Source: Rufibacter sp. LB8
Lineage (GTDB): Bacteria > Bacteroidota > Bacteroidia > Cytophagales > Hymenobacteraceae
Direction of reading: 5' to 3'
Assembly (NCBI RefSeq): GCF_014876185.1
Contig: NZ_JADALJ010000001.1
Span: 434,001 to 498,000, forward strand
DNA: 64,000 bases
Under the pieces are notes generated by a model. That model was not told where the DNA came from. It saw nothing but the letters and a program-made list of their open reading frames with translations, and searched no databases. Positions 4,611 to 10,863 of this stretch are shown here, in pieces (the stretch's first letter is position 1; every line of letters starts with the position of its first letter). Position numbers and translations under genes: made by a program.

Positions 4611-4684
4611 GGGCCTATAGCTCATTCGGTTAGAGCAACTGACTCATAATCAGTAGGTGCTTGGTTCGATTCCAAGTGGGCCCA
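4611..4684 (+). tRNA. tRNA with CAU anticodon (Ile2 or Met)
   Basis: A complete cloverleaf can be folded: acceptor GGGCCTA/TGGGCCC, D-arm GCTC/GAGC, anticodon stem ACTGA/TCAGT with loop CTCATAA (anticodon CAT), T-arm CTTGG/CCAAG with loop TTCGATT, and discriminator A at 4684. CCA is not fully encoded. CAT may be elongator Met or lysidine-modified Ile2. The C4-G69 and C5-G68 pairs resemble the features used by TilS in E. coli tRNA-Ile2, which favours Ile2, but this is an inference. Its 3' half is duplicated at 5974. Confidence 0.96.
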
Positions 4685-4739
4685 CCCTCAAAATGAAGCA
4701 CTTATCTCACAAAACGAGGTAAGTGCTTTTTTGTTGGCG
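4636..4739 (+). repeat. Attachment-site-like direct repeat, left copy (tRNA 3' half plus terminator)
   Basis: The 104 bp from the tRNA anticodon stem to past its terminator recur at 5974-6077. The first 59 bp are identical between copies; the remaining 45 bp are diverged but colinear and of equal length. A partial tRNA 3' duplication of this kind is the usual footprint of integration by a tyrosine recombinase at a tRNA gene. Only the left copy is a functional tRNA. Confidence 0.85.
4696..4732 (+). terminator. Intrinsic terminator of the tRNA gene
   Basis: AAGCACTTA pairs perfectly with TAAGTGCTT and is followed by a T-run. In the duplicated copy (about 6034-6072) the left arm has decayed while the T-run survives. 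Confidence 0.8.
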
Positions 4740-4815
4740 AAATACAGACCCAAAAATTCATCTAGGGTAGCCTTCCTTTGTGGCGTTTCCTTTCTACTGT
4801 CCTAGATTTCTTGCT

Positions 4816-4823
4816 TATATTTG
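4816..4823 (+). promoter_or_regulatory. Bacteroidota-type -7 element upstream of the DUF1016 gene
   Basis: TATATTTG matches the TAnnTTTG -7 consensus and lies 53 nt before the ATG at 4877. The -33 element is weak (TTTC-like sequence about 20 nt upstream). The site lies inside the duplicated-tRNA-bounded segment, so the cargo gene would bring its own promoter. Confidence 0.4.
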
Positions 4824-4876
4824 ATAAAAGGCCTTTCTCAATTCTACGTTGAGTTGTAACATAAAGTACTATCTAC

Positions 4877-5959
4877 ATGAGCAATACGGTGACCTCCAAA
4901 ACGATAGATCAACCAGATGAGCAGCTTTTTGAAAAGATAGCGGCCCTTATTGCTGACGCCCGCCGCAAAGTAATGGCAACGGTTAATCTTGCCATGGTGC
5001 ATACCTACTTTGAGATTGGGCGCATGATTGTAGAAGATGAGCAACAGGGCAATGAACGCGCGGCCTACGGCAAAGCTGTCTTAAAGGAGCTTTCACTGAG
5101 GTTGAGCAAAGAATTTGGGAAAGGCTTTTCGGTGGAGAACCTTGATAGGATGCGTTTTTTCTACAAGACATACTCTCTCTCAAATTCGTCAACAGCGTTG
5201 ACGAATTTGCAGGGAAAAGACGAACGCGGAAAACAGGAGACACCGTCTCGTATTTTCGAACTTTCCTGGTCGCATTACATCAGGCTCATGCGCATTGACA
5301 ACCCTGATGAACGCCGATTCTATGAACTGGAGAGTGCCCAAAACAATTGGAGCCTGAAAGAATTGCAGCGGCAATTTGACAGCGCCCTGTATGAACGCCT
5401 GGCGCTAAGTCGAAACAAGGACCAAGTAAAAGAATTAGCTCAAAAAGGGCAGCAGATCCAGCGTCCGCAAGATGTGATCAAAGACCCGTATGTGCTGGAG
5501 TTTCTGGGACTGAAAGAAGCAGCAGCCTATTCAGAGTCCACCCTGGAGCACCGCATTATTGACGAACTTCAGCATTTCTTATTGGAACTGGGCAAAGGCT
5601 TCGCGTTTGTGGGCCGGCAGGTGCGGTTTTCCTTTGACGACAAGCATTTTAGGGTAGACCTGGTGTTCTACAACCGTTTCCTGCGGAGTTTTGTACTCCT
5701 AGACTTGAAAATTGGCGAAGTCAGCCACCAGGATTTAGGGCAGATGCAGATGTACGTGAACTACTATGACCGCTTTGTGAAAACAGAAGACGAAAACCCC
5801 ACTATTGGCATCATTCTTTGCAAAGAGAAAAACAATGCCTTGGTAGAAATAACGCTACCCAAAGAGAACAACCAAATTTTTGCCAGTAAGTATCAAACGT
5901 TTCTTCCTAGTAAGGAAGAATTAAAGGCGGTGTTGAATGATGCTGTGGAAGAGGTATAG
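4877..5959 (+). CDS. DUF1016 (YhcG-type) PDDEXK nuclease family protein
   Basis: A 360-residue protein with the YhcG architecture: an N-terminal helical domain (about 10-170, with TYFEIGRMIVEDEQQGNERA and LSWSHYIRLMRI) and a C-terminal PDDEXK nuclease-fold domain (about 195-350). Candidate catalytic residues are D261 in VDLVFYNRFL and D276/K278 in LLDLKIGE, followed by HQDLGQMQMYVNYYD. Family members are frequent passengers of type I restriction loci and defence islands; the substrate is unproven. It is the only gene between two copies of a tRNA 3' end, which argues for acquisition by transfer. It ends 14 nt before the right repeat. Confidence 0.9.
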   Translation: MSNTVTSKTIDQPDEQLFEKIAALIADARRKVMATVNLAMVHTYFEIGRMIVEDEQQGNERAAYGKAVLKELSLRLSKEFGKGFSVENLDRMRFFYKTYSLSNSSTALTNLQGKDERGKQETPSRIFELSWSHYIRLMRIDNPDERRFYELESAQNNWSLKELQRQFDSALYERLALSRNKDQVKELAQKGQQIQRPQDVIKDPYVLEFLGLKEAAAYSESTLEHRIIDELQHFLLELGKGFAFVGRQVRFSFDDKHFRVDLVFYNRFLRSFVLLDLKIGEVSHQDLGQMQMYVNYYDRFVKTEDENPTIGIILCKEKNNALVEITLPKENNQIFASKYQTFLPSKEELKAVLNDAVEEV

Positions 5960-5973
5960 TAAGTCTGTTTAAC

Positions 5974-6077
5974 CAACTGACTCATAATCAGTAGGTGCTT
6001 GGTTCGATTCCAAGTGGGCCCACCCTCAAAATTAACCACTCATCTCACAAAGCCAAGTAGGTGCTTTTTTGTTGGCG
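5974..6077 (+). repeat. Attachment-site-like direct repeat, right copy (truncated tRNA)
   Basis: It repeats 4636-4739: identical for 59 bp from CAACTGACTC to CCCTCAAAAT, then 45 bp of diverged terminator sequence ending in TTGTTGGCG. The 5' half of the tRNA is absent, so this is not a functional tRNA gene. Confidence 0.85.
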
Positions 6078-6685: not shown

Positions 6686-7432
6686 ATGTCTACTTCAAAT
6701 TTCAGGTTTTTAGAAGAGGAGTTTCCTATTTTGTTCAATTTAGGGCAATCGGCGGAATTTAACTTGTATCAAGACCCGGTTACGGCCTCGTTTAAAATAA
6801 GGCAATTTGGGGAGCGGCTTACAGAGAAATTGTTTGAGGAACATAAGTTGGAGTTCCCGGCTGAGAATTCTTTTCATAACCGCATCAAAACACTTGAGTT
6901 TGGCAGGATTCTACCCAATAACATCAAAGACCTTTTCTTTCATATCAAAGAGAAAGGGAATATTGCAGTCCATCAGAACAAAGCCACGGTAGATGAGGCT
7001 AAACACGCTCTCTTTCTGTGTTATAAGATAAGCAAGTGGTTTTATGAAACCTACGCCACTGTTCCCGCAGACATAACTGCCTTCAAGTTTCAAATGCCGG
7101 CGGAACTTGACACCCGCCATGCCCTGTATGTTCTGGAAACCGATTACAAGAACCTAGAGCAACGGTTTGAGCAATTACTGCAGGAACGGCAAACTACAGG
7201 ATTGCCAGAAGAGACGCAGCAAGTTATTCAGCAAAGATCTGAGAAAGCGGCCAGCAAGATAGACCAGCTTCCGCAGGCCTTGCTGGCCAAAGCGTTCAGA
7301 GGCGAACTGGTACCGCAAGACCCGCAAGACGAGCCCGCCAGCGTACTGCTGCAAAAGATAAAAGCCGCTCAAGCTAGCACCCCCAAGGCCAAGAAAACCA
7401 AAGGAGAAAACCAAACGGAACTGGCGCTGTAA
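6686..7432 (+). CDS. HsdR N-terminal (DUF4145)/HsdS C-terminal chimeric protein
   Basis: A 248-residue protein combining parts of two type I restriction subunits. Residues 1-125 (SNFRFLEEEFPILFNLGQSA, KIRQFGERL, HIKEKGNIAVH) match the DUF4145 region that opens many HsdR subunits. After a helical linker (145-190), residues 193-227 (LPQALLAKAFRGELVPQD, then EPASVLLQKI) match the conserved C-terminal tail of HsdS specificity subunits. Neither the ATPase/nuclease of HsdR nor any target-recognition domain remains, and no hsdM is nearby. It is either an in-frame deletion relic of a type I operon or a small stand-alone family. The ATG at 6686 fits the HsdR-like start. Confidence 0.8.
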   Translation: MSTSNFRFLEEEFPILFNLGQSAEFNLYQDPVTASFKIRQFGERLTEKLFEEHKLEFPAENSFHNRIKTLEFGRILPNNIKDLFFHIKEKGNIAVHQNKATVDEAKHALFLCYKISKWFYETYATVPADITAFKFQMPAELDTRHALYVLETDYKNLEQRFEQLLQERQTTGLPEETQQVIQQRSEKAASKIDQLPQALLAKAFRGELVPQDPQDEPASVLLQKIKAAQASTPKAKKTKGENQTELAL

Positions 7433-7871: not shown

Positions 7872-8114
7872 ATGGCCAGTTGTTACAGATGTGGTGCGTC
7901 AGGCGCAGACTATAGAAGGTCAGTGGTAACAGGTTCATCTTTTGGAGGCTGGGTGAGTTCTAGGTCTTCTGGCGGAAGTTCAAGGACCTATTATGGCGTA
8001 AGAAGCCATTGTGAAAGTTGCGCCGCCAGAATTGATATGTGGGGCCATATTAAGTGGGCAGCTATCTATTTTGGTTTGTTCTTTATCCTGTTTAAATACC
8101 TTTATGTAGGATGA
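7872..8114 (+). CDS. Small zinc-ribbon membrane protein
   Basis: An 80-residue protein with two cysteine pairs, CYRCG (4-7) and CESC near residue 48, likely a zinc ribbon, separated by a Ser/Gly-rich loop. A single C-terminal membrane helix follows (WAAIYFGLFFILFKYLYV). Its stop overlaps the start of the J-domain gene by 4 nt (ATGA), so the two are translationally coupled and probably work together at the membrane. I recognise no named family. The base composition of this gene and the next is visibly AT-richer than the flanking backbone, suggesting transfer. Confidence 0.75.
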   Translation: MASCYRCGASGADYRRSVVTGSSFGGWVSSRSSGGSSRTYYGVRSHCESCAARIDMWGHIKWAAIYFGLFFILFKYLYVG

Positions 8115-9049
8115 AAACATATTACGAAACACTAGGTGTCTCAGAAGAAGCATCTCAGGATGAAATTAAACAAGCATATCGTAAACTTGCCATTAAGCTC
8201 CATCCAGACAAGAACAGTAATGATACTTTCTTTGACCAATTATTTAAAAGCATTAATGAAGCCTACGAGGTAATAGGAGACGAAAAAAAGCGGGCTGCCT
8301 ACAACCATACGTTACGTGCAACAAAGAGAGGTAAAACACAGAATTCCCCTTTTGAAACAGAAGATTTTGATTTCCTTTTAGTAAATGCTACGTGCCTCAT
8401 CTTAGTAACCAGACAGGTTTCTTCTACCGGTCTGCAAAGAAATTTTAAAATTGGGTATGGCAGAGCAGGCCGCATTATTGACCAACTTGAACATTTGGGC
8501 ATTATATCTCCTTTTGATGGCCATGCTCCCAGAAAATTGCTGGTGAGTTATGACGGCGCACTTGAGCTATTAAGGAAAAATATTCCTGGGTTTTCTTTAC
8601 CTGTCTTCCAGAGCCAGTTTAAAAGCAACCAAGCGGCTTTTAAAGCCAATGCTTCACCAGTAGCAACTACTCCCCCTGCCTCACCTACAATAAGAAAGAA
8701 GAACAGAAAGCCAGCTTCTGTTTGGGCAAAAGTAACTTGTTGGAAATGGGTAAAACGGTTTTTTCTGTTTGCTAACTTACTTTTAGTATCAATTTATTTT
8801 TTCAGAGAAAGTCTCACTAACGCCAAAATTACGGCCACTAAAGGACTAAAAATAAGAGAGACTCCCCATGTAGATGCCGTCCCTATTACAGGCGTTCCCA
8901 ATAATCAGAGGGTGGAAATATTGCGTACAGATGGCCCGCTGGAAAAAATAGAAGGCAGGAAAGATAATTGGTATTATATCAGGTATAAAAATAAAGAGGG
9001 CTGGGCCTGGGGCGGTTTTATAAAAAGAGATAGCAAAGAAATTAGGTAA
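8111..9049 (+). CDS. J-domain / FtsK-gamma-like winged helix / SH3b membrane protein
   Basis: A 312-residue fusion. Residues 3-68 are a canonical J-domain with HPD at 31-33 (LAIKLHPDKN) and the YEVIGDEKKRAAY end; this should stimulate a DnaK-type chaperone. Residues about 86-147 (VTRQVSSTGLQRNFKIGYGR, then AGRIIDQLEHLGIISP) closely resemble the FtsK gamma winged-helix domain, which in FtsK reads KOPS DNA motifs. A linker rich in Ala/Pro, a short membrane helix (about 218-232, FFLFANLLLVSIYFF) and a C-terminal bacterial SH3 domain (about 241-306, DNWYYIRYKNKEGWAW) follow. The J and winged-helix parts would be cytoplasmic and SH3b periplasmic. Function of the combination is unknown. Confidence 0.85.
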   Translation: MKTYYETLGVSEEASQDEIKQAYRKLAIKLHPDKNSNDTFFDQLFKSINEAYEVIGDEKKRAAYNHTLRATKRGKTQNSPFETEDFDFLLVNATCLILVTRQVSSTGLQRNFKIGYGRAGRIIDQLEHLGIISPFDGHAPRKLLVSYDGALELLRKNIPGFSLPVFQSQFKSNQAAFKANASPVATTPPASPTIRKKNRKPASVWAKVTCWKWVKRFFLFANLLLVSIYFFRESLTNAKITATKGLKIRETPHVDAVPITGVPNNQRVEILRTDGPLEKIEGRKDNWYYIRYKNKEGWAWGGFIKRDSKEIR

Positions 9050-9078: not shown

Positions 9079-10863
9079 ATGCAAAAATACTCCGTCAATC
9101 AATACCTTATAGAAACCGTGCTCGCCTGGGTAAAATCTGGCGAGATTGCCATACCAGAAATTCAACGCCCATTTGTCTGGGATAGCTCCAAAGTGCGTGA
9201 CCTTATGGACAGCCTGTACCAGGGCTATCCGGTAGGCTACGTCATCGCCTGGAAGAACCCCAACGTGAAACTGAAAGACGGCACGCTGAGTGACGGCAAA
9301 AAGGTGCTCATTGACGGGCAGCAGCGCATCACGGCCCTCACTGCCGCTATTCTGGGGCAGTACGTGGTAAACAAGAACTACAAGCGGGTTAAGATTAAGG
9401 TGGCGTTCCACCCCATAGACCAGCGGTTTGAGGTACAGAACCCCGCTATCTTAAAAGACAAAACTTGGCTGCCAGACATTGCCGAAGCCATTAACGGTGA
9501 CCTTTTTGAAATAGCTGAGAACTACTTTGAGCTGAACCCAGACGTAGACAAAAAACAGGTCCGCAATGCCTTCTCCACGCTCATCAACATTCCTAAAAAA
9601 CAAATAGGCATGATTGAATTGGCCCCAGACCTGGACATTGAAACCGTCACGGAGATTTTCATCAGAATTAACTCCAAAGGCGTGGTCCTGAGCCAGGCAG
9701 ACTTTGCCATGAGCAAAATTGCCTCCAACTCAGAATACAACGGCAACGAGCTGCGCAAAGCCATAGACTACTTTTGCCACCTGGCCATTGCGCCAGAGTT
9801 CTTCCGGCATATTGTAGACAATGACCCAGAGTTTGCCAAGACAAATTTCTTCCAGAAAATGCAATGGCTTAGGTCAGAGACAGAAGACCTCTATGACCCA
9901 GAATACACAGACTTAATCAGGGTGGCTTTTACGTCTAAATTCAACCGCGGCAAGCTGTCAGATTTAGTGAGCCTGCTATCAGGGCGAAATTTTGAGGCCA
10001 GAACGTTTGAGGCCGCCATTGCAGAGCAATCTTTTGCCACCTTGAGAGAAGGCGTGTACAACTTCATTAATGAAACCAACTACAAACGGTTCATCATGAT
10101 TGTGAAGTCGGCGGGCTTTATCTCGCCCAAGCTCATACGGTCGCAGAACGTGCTCAATTTCGCGTACATCCTGTTTCTAAAGCTTCGGGAACTGGGGGTG
10201 AATTCTGTTTCCATTGAGACCTACGTGCGTCGTTGGCTGGTGTATTCCATCTTAACGGGTCGCTATTCCGGCTCTGCCGAAAGTTATTTTGATTATGACA
10301 TCAAGCAAATCTCTGAGCGGTCCTTTGCCGAGTATCTAAAGGAAAAAGAAGAAGGTGAATTGTCTGAGGCTTTCTGGAATTTCTCACTGCCCCAGAGTTT
10401 AGATACCTCTGTGGCCAGCAGTCCGTACTTTCTGGTTTTTCTGGCGGCCCAGGTTAAAGCCAATGACAAAGGTTTTCTGTCTAAAGACATCACGGTGGCA
10501 GACCTTATTTCCCACAAAGGCGATATTCACCACCTCTTCCCCAAAGAATACCTGAAAAGAAACGGGCTTGACCGCAGCAAGTACAACCAGATTGCCAACT
10601 ACGCTTACATGCAAACCGAAATCAACATTAAGGTAGGCAGTAAATCTCCTAAAGAGTATTTCGGTCTTCTCTCAGCTCAAATGCAGGAACAGAATCTGCA
10701 ACTAAGCGGCCTAGCTAACCCAGAGGAGCTTTCCCATAACCTAAAGATGAATGCAGTACCAGTATCTTTGGCGCACATGGAGATACAGCACTACACAGAT
10801 TTTTTAATTGGCCGCCGGCGGCTGATGGCAGAAAAGATTAAAGATTATTATTTTTCGCTTTAG
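9079..10863 (+). CDS. DUF262-DUF1524 protein (GmrSD-like, single chain)
   Basis: A 594-residue protein. The N-terminal DUF262 domain has IPEIQRPFVW (25-34), YQGYPVGYVI and DGQQR (79-83), the ParB-like nucleotide-binding/hydrolysing signature of GmrS. A long helical middle follows. The C-terminal DUF1524-type His-Me nuclease motif is DIHHLFPKEYL at 482-492, with the downstream asparagine-rich NQIANYAYMQTEINIKVGSK. Proteins of this type include type IV modification-dependent restriction enzymes and related phage-defence nucleases. It lies 29 nt after the J-domain gene on the same strand and ends at a strong terminator, so it is plausibly in that operon. Its codon use is closer to the chromosome than that of the J-domain gene. 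Confidence 0.9.
   Translation: MQKYSVNQYLIETVLAWVKSGEIAIPEIQRPFVWDSSKVRDLMDSLYQGYPVGYVIAWKNPNVKLKDGTLSDGKKVLIDGQQRITALTAAILGQYVVNKNYKRVKIKVAFHPIDQRFEVQNPAILKDKTWLPDIAEAINGDLFEIAENYFELNPDVDKKQVRNAFSTLINIPKKQIGMIELAPDLDIETVTEIFIRINSKGVVLSQADFAMSKIASNSEYNGNELRKAIDYFCHLAIAPEFFRHIVDNDPEFAKTNFFQKMQWLRSETEDLYDPEYTDLIRVAFTSKFNRGKLSDLVSLLSGRNFEARTFEAAIAEQSFATLREGVYNFINETNYKRFIMIVKSAGFISPKLIRSQNVLNFAYILFLKLRELGVNSVSIETYVRRWLVYSILTGRYSGSAESYFDYDIKQISERSFAEYLKEKEEGELSEAFWNFSLPQSLDTSVASSPYFLVFLAAQVKANDKGFLSKDITVADLISHKGDIHHLFPKEYLKRNGLDRSKYNQIANYAYMQTEINIKVGSKSPKEYFGLLSAQMQEQNLQLSGLANPEELSHNLKMNAVPVSLAHMEIQHYTDFLIGRRRLMAEKIKDYYFSL

Follow-up and report, generated by a model that had tools for sequence, protein, structure and literature searches.

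An FtsK gamma domain inside a J-domain protein encoded by a two-gene cassette of a Rufibacter genomic island

The window analysed in this work is a 64,000-nt stretch of the genome of Rufibacter sp. LB8 (contig NZ_JADALJ010000001.1, positions 434,001 to 498,000). Within it, the end of a gene for a small CxxC protein overlaps by 4 bp the gene for P0001, a protein that joins a J-domain, an FtsK gamma winged helix, a probable membrane helix and an SH3b domain, and a GmrSD_N gene starts 29 bp after the P0001 gene (Table 1). This architecture, with an HPD-type J-domain, had been proposed in a preliminary description made from the letters of the sequence, and it was recovered here by Pfam and hydropathy. 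Pfam assigned DnaJ (85.4 bits against a cut-off of 27.8, E = 2.8e-24), FtsK_gamma (65.4 bits against 30.6, E = 3.8e-18) and SH3_3 (32 bits against 27, E = 1.5e-7), and nothing beyond these three at E ≤ 1, while the HPD motif is intact at residues 31-33. According to Pfam, a motor (ATPase) domain is absent ahead of the gamma domain; the FtsK of the host genome is encoded elsewhere. Neither the zinc domain nor the C-terminal domains of DnaJ gave a Pfam match in P0001, and the NCBIfam DnaJ models were confined to its first 89 residues, all of them under their cut-offs. By its domain composition, P0001 is thus classified as a type III J-domain protein and not as a canonical type I DnaJ.

Table 1. 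Features of the cassette and of the surrounding island (positions in the window)
Feature	Position	Strand	Basis
Intact tRNA-Met, synteny break, presumed integration hotspot	4611..4686	+	ARAGORN; same-genus synteny
YhcG/DUF1016 nuclease, between two tRNA-Met copies	4877..5959	+	PADLOC PDC-S02, best E 1e-144
51-bp direct repeat of the tRNA-Met 3' end, presumed attachment-site relic	5974..6024	+	Sequence repeat
DUF4145 ORF with HsdS-like C-terminus	6686..7432	+	PADLOC, best E 4e-30
80-aa partner, CxxC...CxxC head and C-terminal hydrophobic helix	7872..8114	+	Sequence; homologues before J genes
P0001, J-FtsK gamma-membrane helix-SH3b protein	8111..9049	+	312 aa, ATG start; ORF and Pfam
J-domain of P0001, residues 3-65	8117..8305	+	Pfam DnaJ, AF2
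FtsK gamma winged helix of P0001, residues 87-145	8369..8545	+	Pfam, AF2, Foldseek
Probable membrane helix of P0001, residues 217-235	8759..8815	+	Hydropathy, charge, AF2 helix 202-233
SH3b domain of P0001, residues 245-305, predicted extracytoplasmic	8843..9025	+	Pfam SH3_3
GmrSD_N (DUF262) protein	9079..10863	+	Pfam E 9.4e-31; PADLOC HEC-05 E 5e-30

Of the parts of P0001, the membrane helix is assigned with the least certainty, being probable and weak by hydropathy: the best 19-residue stretch of the protein scored 1.53, and helices at the same place in three related proteins (see below) scored 2.16, 1.13 and 1.38. Net charge amounts to +7 over the 20 residues before the helix and to +2 over the 20 residues after it. 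These positive charges on the N-terminal side predict an N-in orientation, with the J and gamma domains inside and SH3b outside, and P0001 probably sits anchored in the inner membrane, its N-terminus facing the cytoplasm. In the AlphaFold2 model of the full-length protein, the J-domain scored 89-98 by block, followed by the helix and by strands from residue 239 to 306; the gamma stretch, for which the alignment held no gamma rows, was poor (blocks of 42-79), and with a pTM of 0.36 the model makes no statement on the arrangement of the domains. Gamma and full-length P0001 were modelled apart because the first full-length alignments misplaced the gamma rows.

The preliminary description had named a profile search and a structure prediction as checks on the gamma domain, and both agreed with it. 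In addition to the Pfam match given above, the model of the gamma domain alone (AlphaFold2, alignment of 17 sequences; mean pLDDT 89.6, pTM 0.80) adopted the FtsK gamma fold, with 13 Foldseek matches in the PDB at E ≤ 0.001, all of them FtsK gamma (2ve8, 2ve9, 2j5p, 2j5o), and a XerD-gamma fusion (5dcf) as the fourteenth at E = 0.014. A profile built from 17 gammas, with that of P0001 as the lead sequence, retrieved six distinct PDB sequences at E ≤ 0.01, every one an FtsK or a XerD-FtsK fusion. A chance match, or a winged helix of another kind, is ruled out by Pfam, the PDB profile search and Foldseek.

We compared the binding surface of the P0001 gamma with those of 29 distinct FtsK-type and 17 other (non-FtsK) gammas. 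QR and GY are kept in P0001, and so are the equivalents of E. coli R1297 and R1300, as in 29 of 29 FtsK-type gammas; at E1303 P0001 has Asp, which is also found in all 29. Where E. coli has Q1288, R1289, R1292, I1293, G1294 and N1296, P0001 has Q, R, K, I, G and G, the Lys at 1292 being shared with 28 of the 29 FtsK-type gammas. The Gly at 1296 replaces an Asn present in 27/29 FtsK-type and 15/17 other gammas. In the E. coli domain, N1296, R1300 and E1303 have a role in KOPS reading. Given the change of this conserved recognition-helix Asn, reading of a KOPS-like sequence is not supported, and sequence-specific reading by the P0001 gamma may be lost or altered. Judged by these residues, a working gamma surface is nevertheless likely in P0001. 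According to the available portion of PMC5052618, FtsK gamma binds KOPS DNA with three domains per site, and DNA and XerD share one surface of the domain; the XerD contacts in its Table 1 are Q1288, R1289, R1292, I1293, G1294 and N1296, with R1289 among the changes having the greatest effect on XerD binding.

Homologues of the CxxC protein are rare. They were found in 3 of 390 genomes of the order (≤14 candidates scored per genome) and in 2 of 277 genomes of the class (≤20 scored), the host genome counted in both, and among 84,980 species genomes scanned by pattern there were four loci, two of which were already in the order sample. Plasmids and phages gave no match at E ≤ 0.001, and 32 pattern matches in viral contigs included no relative. 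The protein thus occurs in six places: the window, Fulvivirga sediminis, Hymenobacter sediminis, H. terrestris, a Phycisphaerae MAG and one further genome (G731). In four of the six, its gene lies directly before a gene coding for a J-x-helix-SH3b protein; the two genes overlap by 4 bp in the window, abut with 0 bp between them in two of the other cassettes and are 1 bp apart in the third. SH3_3 exceeded its cut-off in three of the four J-proteins and fell just under it in that of H. sediminis (26.7 versus 27 bits). On the short contig of the Phycisphaerae MAG, the CxxC gene is found without J or SH3b and the next gene is, by eye, pheS-like. In G731 (L168 6994-7506), a single protein of 170 aa, which has no J-domain, joins the CxxC head to helix-SH3b; it matches the CxxC protein of the window at 49% over 76 aa and the P0001 SH3b at 35% over 69 aa. 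This fusion suggests that both cassette products meet in the membrane, where they probably work together. By eye, the G731 gene sits among housekeeping-like genes, a setting from which the cassette may have had an ancestor outside islands.

The cassette of the window lies to the right of the tRNA-Met gene. In the same-genus genomes examined (8 of 15 others), the two genes left of tRNA-Met were kept in 8/8, and in the 12.6-13.7 kb to its right none of the 54 window ORFs had a match in any of the eight (tblastn, E ≤ 1e-15), DNA similarity stopping within ~60 bp of the tRNA gene. Four genes lying outside the island have a GC content of 52-57%, against 46-47% for the YhcG, DUF4145 and GmrSD genes; the CxxC gene has 44.9% and the J-gamma gene 39.5%. 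PADLOC models matched three of the five island ORFs scanned at E ≤ 1e-29, and none of 10 other window proteins (two left and eight right of the island) at E ≤ 1e-5; P0001 and the CxxC protein matched no PADLOC family at E ≤ 1. The cassette lies in a variable, low-GC island at the tRNA-Met, among defence-type genes. Within it, the ORF at 6686-7432 joins a DUF4145/HsdR-like N-terminus to an HsdS-like C-terminus and is probably, from this composition, a remnant of a type I restriction system. At 4611-6024, the YhcG gene stands alone between tRNA-Met and the repeat, like a minimal tRNA-flanked insert without integrase.

The surroundings of the other three cassettes differ. An IetS-like subtilase gene lies just before that of H. 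sediminis, with a type II methylase and a nuclease within ~5 kb; TIR and, weakly, PLD genes lie within ~5 kb of that of Fulvivirga; and that of H. terrestris is accompanied by a primase gene, an HTH gene under the Pfam cut-off and, ~5 kb away, an integrase gene found by Pfam. Eight neighbours from these three loci, picked by eye, were given to PADLOC, and six of them matched while two did not. No neighbour gene common to the four loci was seen, and no GmrSD gene was seen beside the other three cassettes (by eye, partly Pfam), which rules out GmrSD as a conserved partner of the cassette. The preliminary description had placed P0001 in a defence-like island next to a GmrSD-like nuclease. The island-like character is borne out by the synteny break, the low GC and the PADLOC contrast; a partnership with GmrSD is not supported.

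Among the cassette J-proteins, the gamma domain is the exception. Those of Fulvivirga and the two Hymenobacter species, of 217, 271 and 271 aa, show a J-linker-helix-SH3b architecture, none of the three has a gamma domain by Pfam, and the place of gamma is taken, by eye, by a short linker or by a charged, coiled-coil-like stretch. A search with full-length P0001 returned no other protein combining J and gamma in 58 other relatives, in 389 other genomes of the order and 394 of the class (≤5 candidates scored per genome in each), or in 72,556 plasmids and 50,697 phages; the genome samples partly coincide, and the window's own genome is among them. None of the 421 matching plasmid records and none of the 190 matching phage records covered 80% of P0001, the 15 listed matches of each covering at most 37% and 52%, and the three matches opened were a J-domain with a protein kinase (huge phage), an FtsK and an RdgC-gamma protein. 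A pattern scan of viral contigs likewise found no J-gamma protein; the scans of viral and genome contigs, being seeded with short peptide patterns, detect close relatives only, and the profile model searched in 296 genomes was without the gamma columns. Within the searched samples, the J-gamma fusion is a singleton. Gamma as the core of a defined system is not supported, since 3/3 other J cassettes do without it; judged by this distribution, gamma is a module swapped into a J-protein of modular, membrane-bound type and not the core of a system. With four unrooted cassettes, it may have been either gained in the lineage of the window or lost elsewhere. The literature search, its wider part covering titles and the beginnings of abstracts, found no paper joining FtsK gamma with a J-domain protein, so that the link of gamma to J and DnaK seems undescribed, as the preliminary description had held.

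Other J-proteins came to light in the loci fetched. The protein at L049 1495-2529 (LR745208.1, a 485-kb phage) joins a J-domain to a protein kinase (Pfam DnaJ 1e-14, Pkinase 7e-29). Several Bacteroidota J-proteins (L033, L037, L038, L042, L044, L048, L055-L059) have one hydrophobic helix and WG, Sel1 or unnamed domains, and these one-helix proteins perhaps form a large uncharacterised group.

Gamma domains outside FtsK were then considered. All of 109 genomes of the phylum carried an FtsK-type gamma, as judged by open-frame length, and the only one with gamma outside FtsK was that of the window, included by design; the odd cases were, by eye, an FtsK-like protein of 613 aa (G498) and a split FtsK frame (G464), and what looks, by coordinates, like a contig break (G413). 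Two of 60 genomes of the family had gamma outside FtsK, that of the window and one of the same genus (G009), in which Pfam found gamma fused to an HNH nuclease (L164 5898-6884). Tyrosine-recombinase-like and resolvase-like genes (by eye) and a DarG-like gene (PADLOC) neighbour the latter, and a viral contig (L124) encodes a protein of the same gamma-HNH architecture. In viral contigs and phages, Pfam showed fusions of gamma to RdgC (L129), a DnaG-type primase (L118), HNH (L124) and DUF4236 (L099), and fusions to BT4734-like primases (L120, L125) and to further RdgC and DUF4236 proteins were recognised by eye, together with a gamma after an N-terminal hydrophobic segment (L122). At the position of the gamma match, many Vibrio phages among the 40 listed of 256 records bear RdgC-type names, and so do Aeromonas and Rhodanobacter plasmids. 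The available part of PMC8190038 describes a gamma fusion in the phage small terminase of Sam46/Sam112. Gamma is thus a module of mobile DNA, found with RdgC, primases, HNH nucleases, terminase and DUF4236 proteins.

Some of these proteins have layouts of their own. RdgC carries gamma at its C-terminus in L050 2131-3291, L127, L129, L131, L132 and Vibrio phages. The DnaG-type primase of the viral contigs L118/L119 (1997-5188) has gamma placed after its zinc ribbon and ahead of its catalytic core. DUF4236, a hydrophobic segment, gamma and a TPR-like part make up proteins of ~400 aa in the viral contigs L099/L117, L126 and L128 (Pfam for L099 only).

As for the source of the P0001 gamma, local alignment gave 31 of 58 identical residues with the FtsK gamma of its own genome and 33 of 67 with the closest DUF4236-type gamma. 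In the tree, the P0001 gamma stood outside the Bacteroidota FtsK group and beside the RdgC/phage group, with a support of 85 and long branches. Forcing it together with 25 FtsK gammas was marginally rejected by the AU test (p = 0.042) and not by KH (0.064) or SH (0.098), while grouping it with two DUF4236-type gammas was not rejected (AU p = 0.44). Recent copying from the FtsK gamma of its own genome is disfavoured by the identity of 31/58 and by the tree, though not firmly rejected; a stretch of ~60 residues is too short to show where the domain came from.

Type III J-proteins are suggested, in the available sections of PMC3486835, to deliver specific substrates or to give Hsp70 a location, and DjlA may do so at the membrane. 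If type III proteins lend DnaK an address, that of P0001 would be the membrane, through helix and SH3b, plus gamma. We propose, with confidence evenly divided, that P0001 is a type III co-chaperone bringing DnaK to DNA, or to a DNA-bound protein target, at the membrane. SH3b would hold P0001 to the envelope, and the cytoplasmic gamma, as its fold and kept basic residues suggest, would dock the protein onto double-stranded DNA located at the membrane or close by. Acting as J-proteins do, the J-domain would then fire the DnaK ATPase on a protein bound there, and DnaK would load on and remodel the DNA-bound complex. In its simplest form, the proposal has DnaK loaded either onto a protein sitting on DNA or onto a recombinase, close to the membrane. 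The CxxC protein may serve as a membrane co-receptor or as a client-binding head, considering the recurring gene pair and the L168 fusion. In this proposal, P0001 comes from a modular two-gene cassette found in genomic islands, CxxC-helix plus J-linker-helix-SH3b, and in this one genome gamma fills the linker. A bolder form of the proposal, a DNA-addressed Hsp70 in which DnaK is placed on DNA at the envelope and dismantles incoming nucleoprotein of phage or mobile DNA, with gamma as an exchangeable specificity head of a general envelope-island system of CxxC, J and SH3b parts, is in our judgement very unlikely.

The gamma surface also admits a reading in which the domain docks on protein, tying P0001 to a XerD-type tyrosine recombinase or integrase, and DnaK to recombination complexes. 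The equivalent of R1289, important for XerD in the available part of PMC5052618, is kept in P0001, and the H. terrestris cassette lies near an integrase gene; but N1296, a XerD contact too, is lost, the surroundings of the window cassette showed no integrase (by eye, and by Pfam on 8 ORFs), and the common DNA/XerD surface means that the P0001 residues cannot separate DNA docking from recombinase docking. We regard this reading as unlikely. We see just as little probability in P0001 being an ordinary envelope J-protein, DjlA-like in role, in which gamma is carried along, neutral and with no role on DNA. Decay would be expected of such an insert, and the kept gamma (profile, QR, GY, two Arg, open frame) counts against such a passenger, even if the recognition-helix Asn is lost, 3/3 other cassette members lack gamma and one-helix J-proteins with other C-terminal domains (Sel1, WG, unnamed) are recurrent in the phylum loci fetched. 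A defence role of the cassette is possible by analogy, and plausible because, in the accessible part of PMC12169576, phage sensing by bNACHT25 needs DnaJ with an intact J-domain. That P0001 would be a membrane sensor of injected phage DNA, recruiting DnaK as part of an anti-phage system, as the preliminary description had imagined, is the least probable reading: to this precedent, to the island with YhcG, a restriction remnant and a GmrSD-type gene (PADLOC 3/5 versus 0/10) and to the defence-type genes within ~5 kb of two of the three other cassettes (H. sediminis, Fulvivirga) are opposed the lack of any PADLOC match at E ≤ 1 for P0001 and its CxxC partner, the choice by eye of the neighbours at the other loci, with 2/8 unmatched and no control there, and the fact that no neighbour gene was seen common to the four loci and nothing points to phage DNA as the target.

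Should the proposal of a co-chaperone bringing DnaK to DNA at the membrane be true, P0001 would be, to our knowledge, the first case in which the DNA-reading domain of a chromosome motor tells DnaK where to act, and a modular exchange of J-protein address domains, like that of restriction specificity subunits, would become testable. Even with an idle gamma, the CxxC/J-x-helix-SH3b cassette and gamma as a module of mobile DNA remain.

Each part of P0001 is already known, and the protein belongs to the type III J-proteins. Its gamma is like that of FtsK/SpoIIIE (PF09397; 2ve8, 2ve9, 2j5p) in profile match, predicted fold, QR, GY, R1297 and R1300, and unlike it in having Gly at N1296 and in lying within a J-protein instead of at the end of a DNA motor. 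With the non-FtsK gamma fusions, which come mostly from phages and mobile elements, P0001 shares the use of gamma as a module added outside the FtsK motor and, by eye, hydrophobic segments in L099 and L122; none of the fusions seen has a J-domain, whereas P0001 has one. CbpA is soluble, has DnaJ-type C-terminal domains and binds DNA by means other than a gamma domain. As described in the available part of PMC4063869, it combines a J-domain and DNA binding in one protein, as P0001 would on the strength of its gamma. In layout, P0001 also resembles the type III J-proteins DjlA and Rki of phage RB43, in which, going by the accessible sections of PMC3486835, the J-domain is the sole DnaJ-type part and the remainder acts as an address; the placement of DjlA at the membrane is likely for P0001 too, whose address differs from those of DjlA and Rki in including a DNA-reading domain and an SH3b domain.
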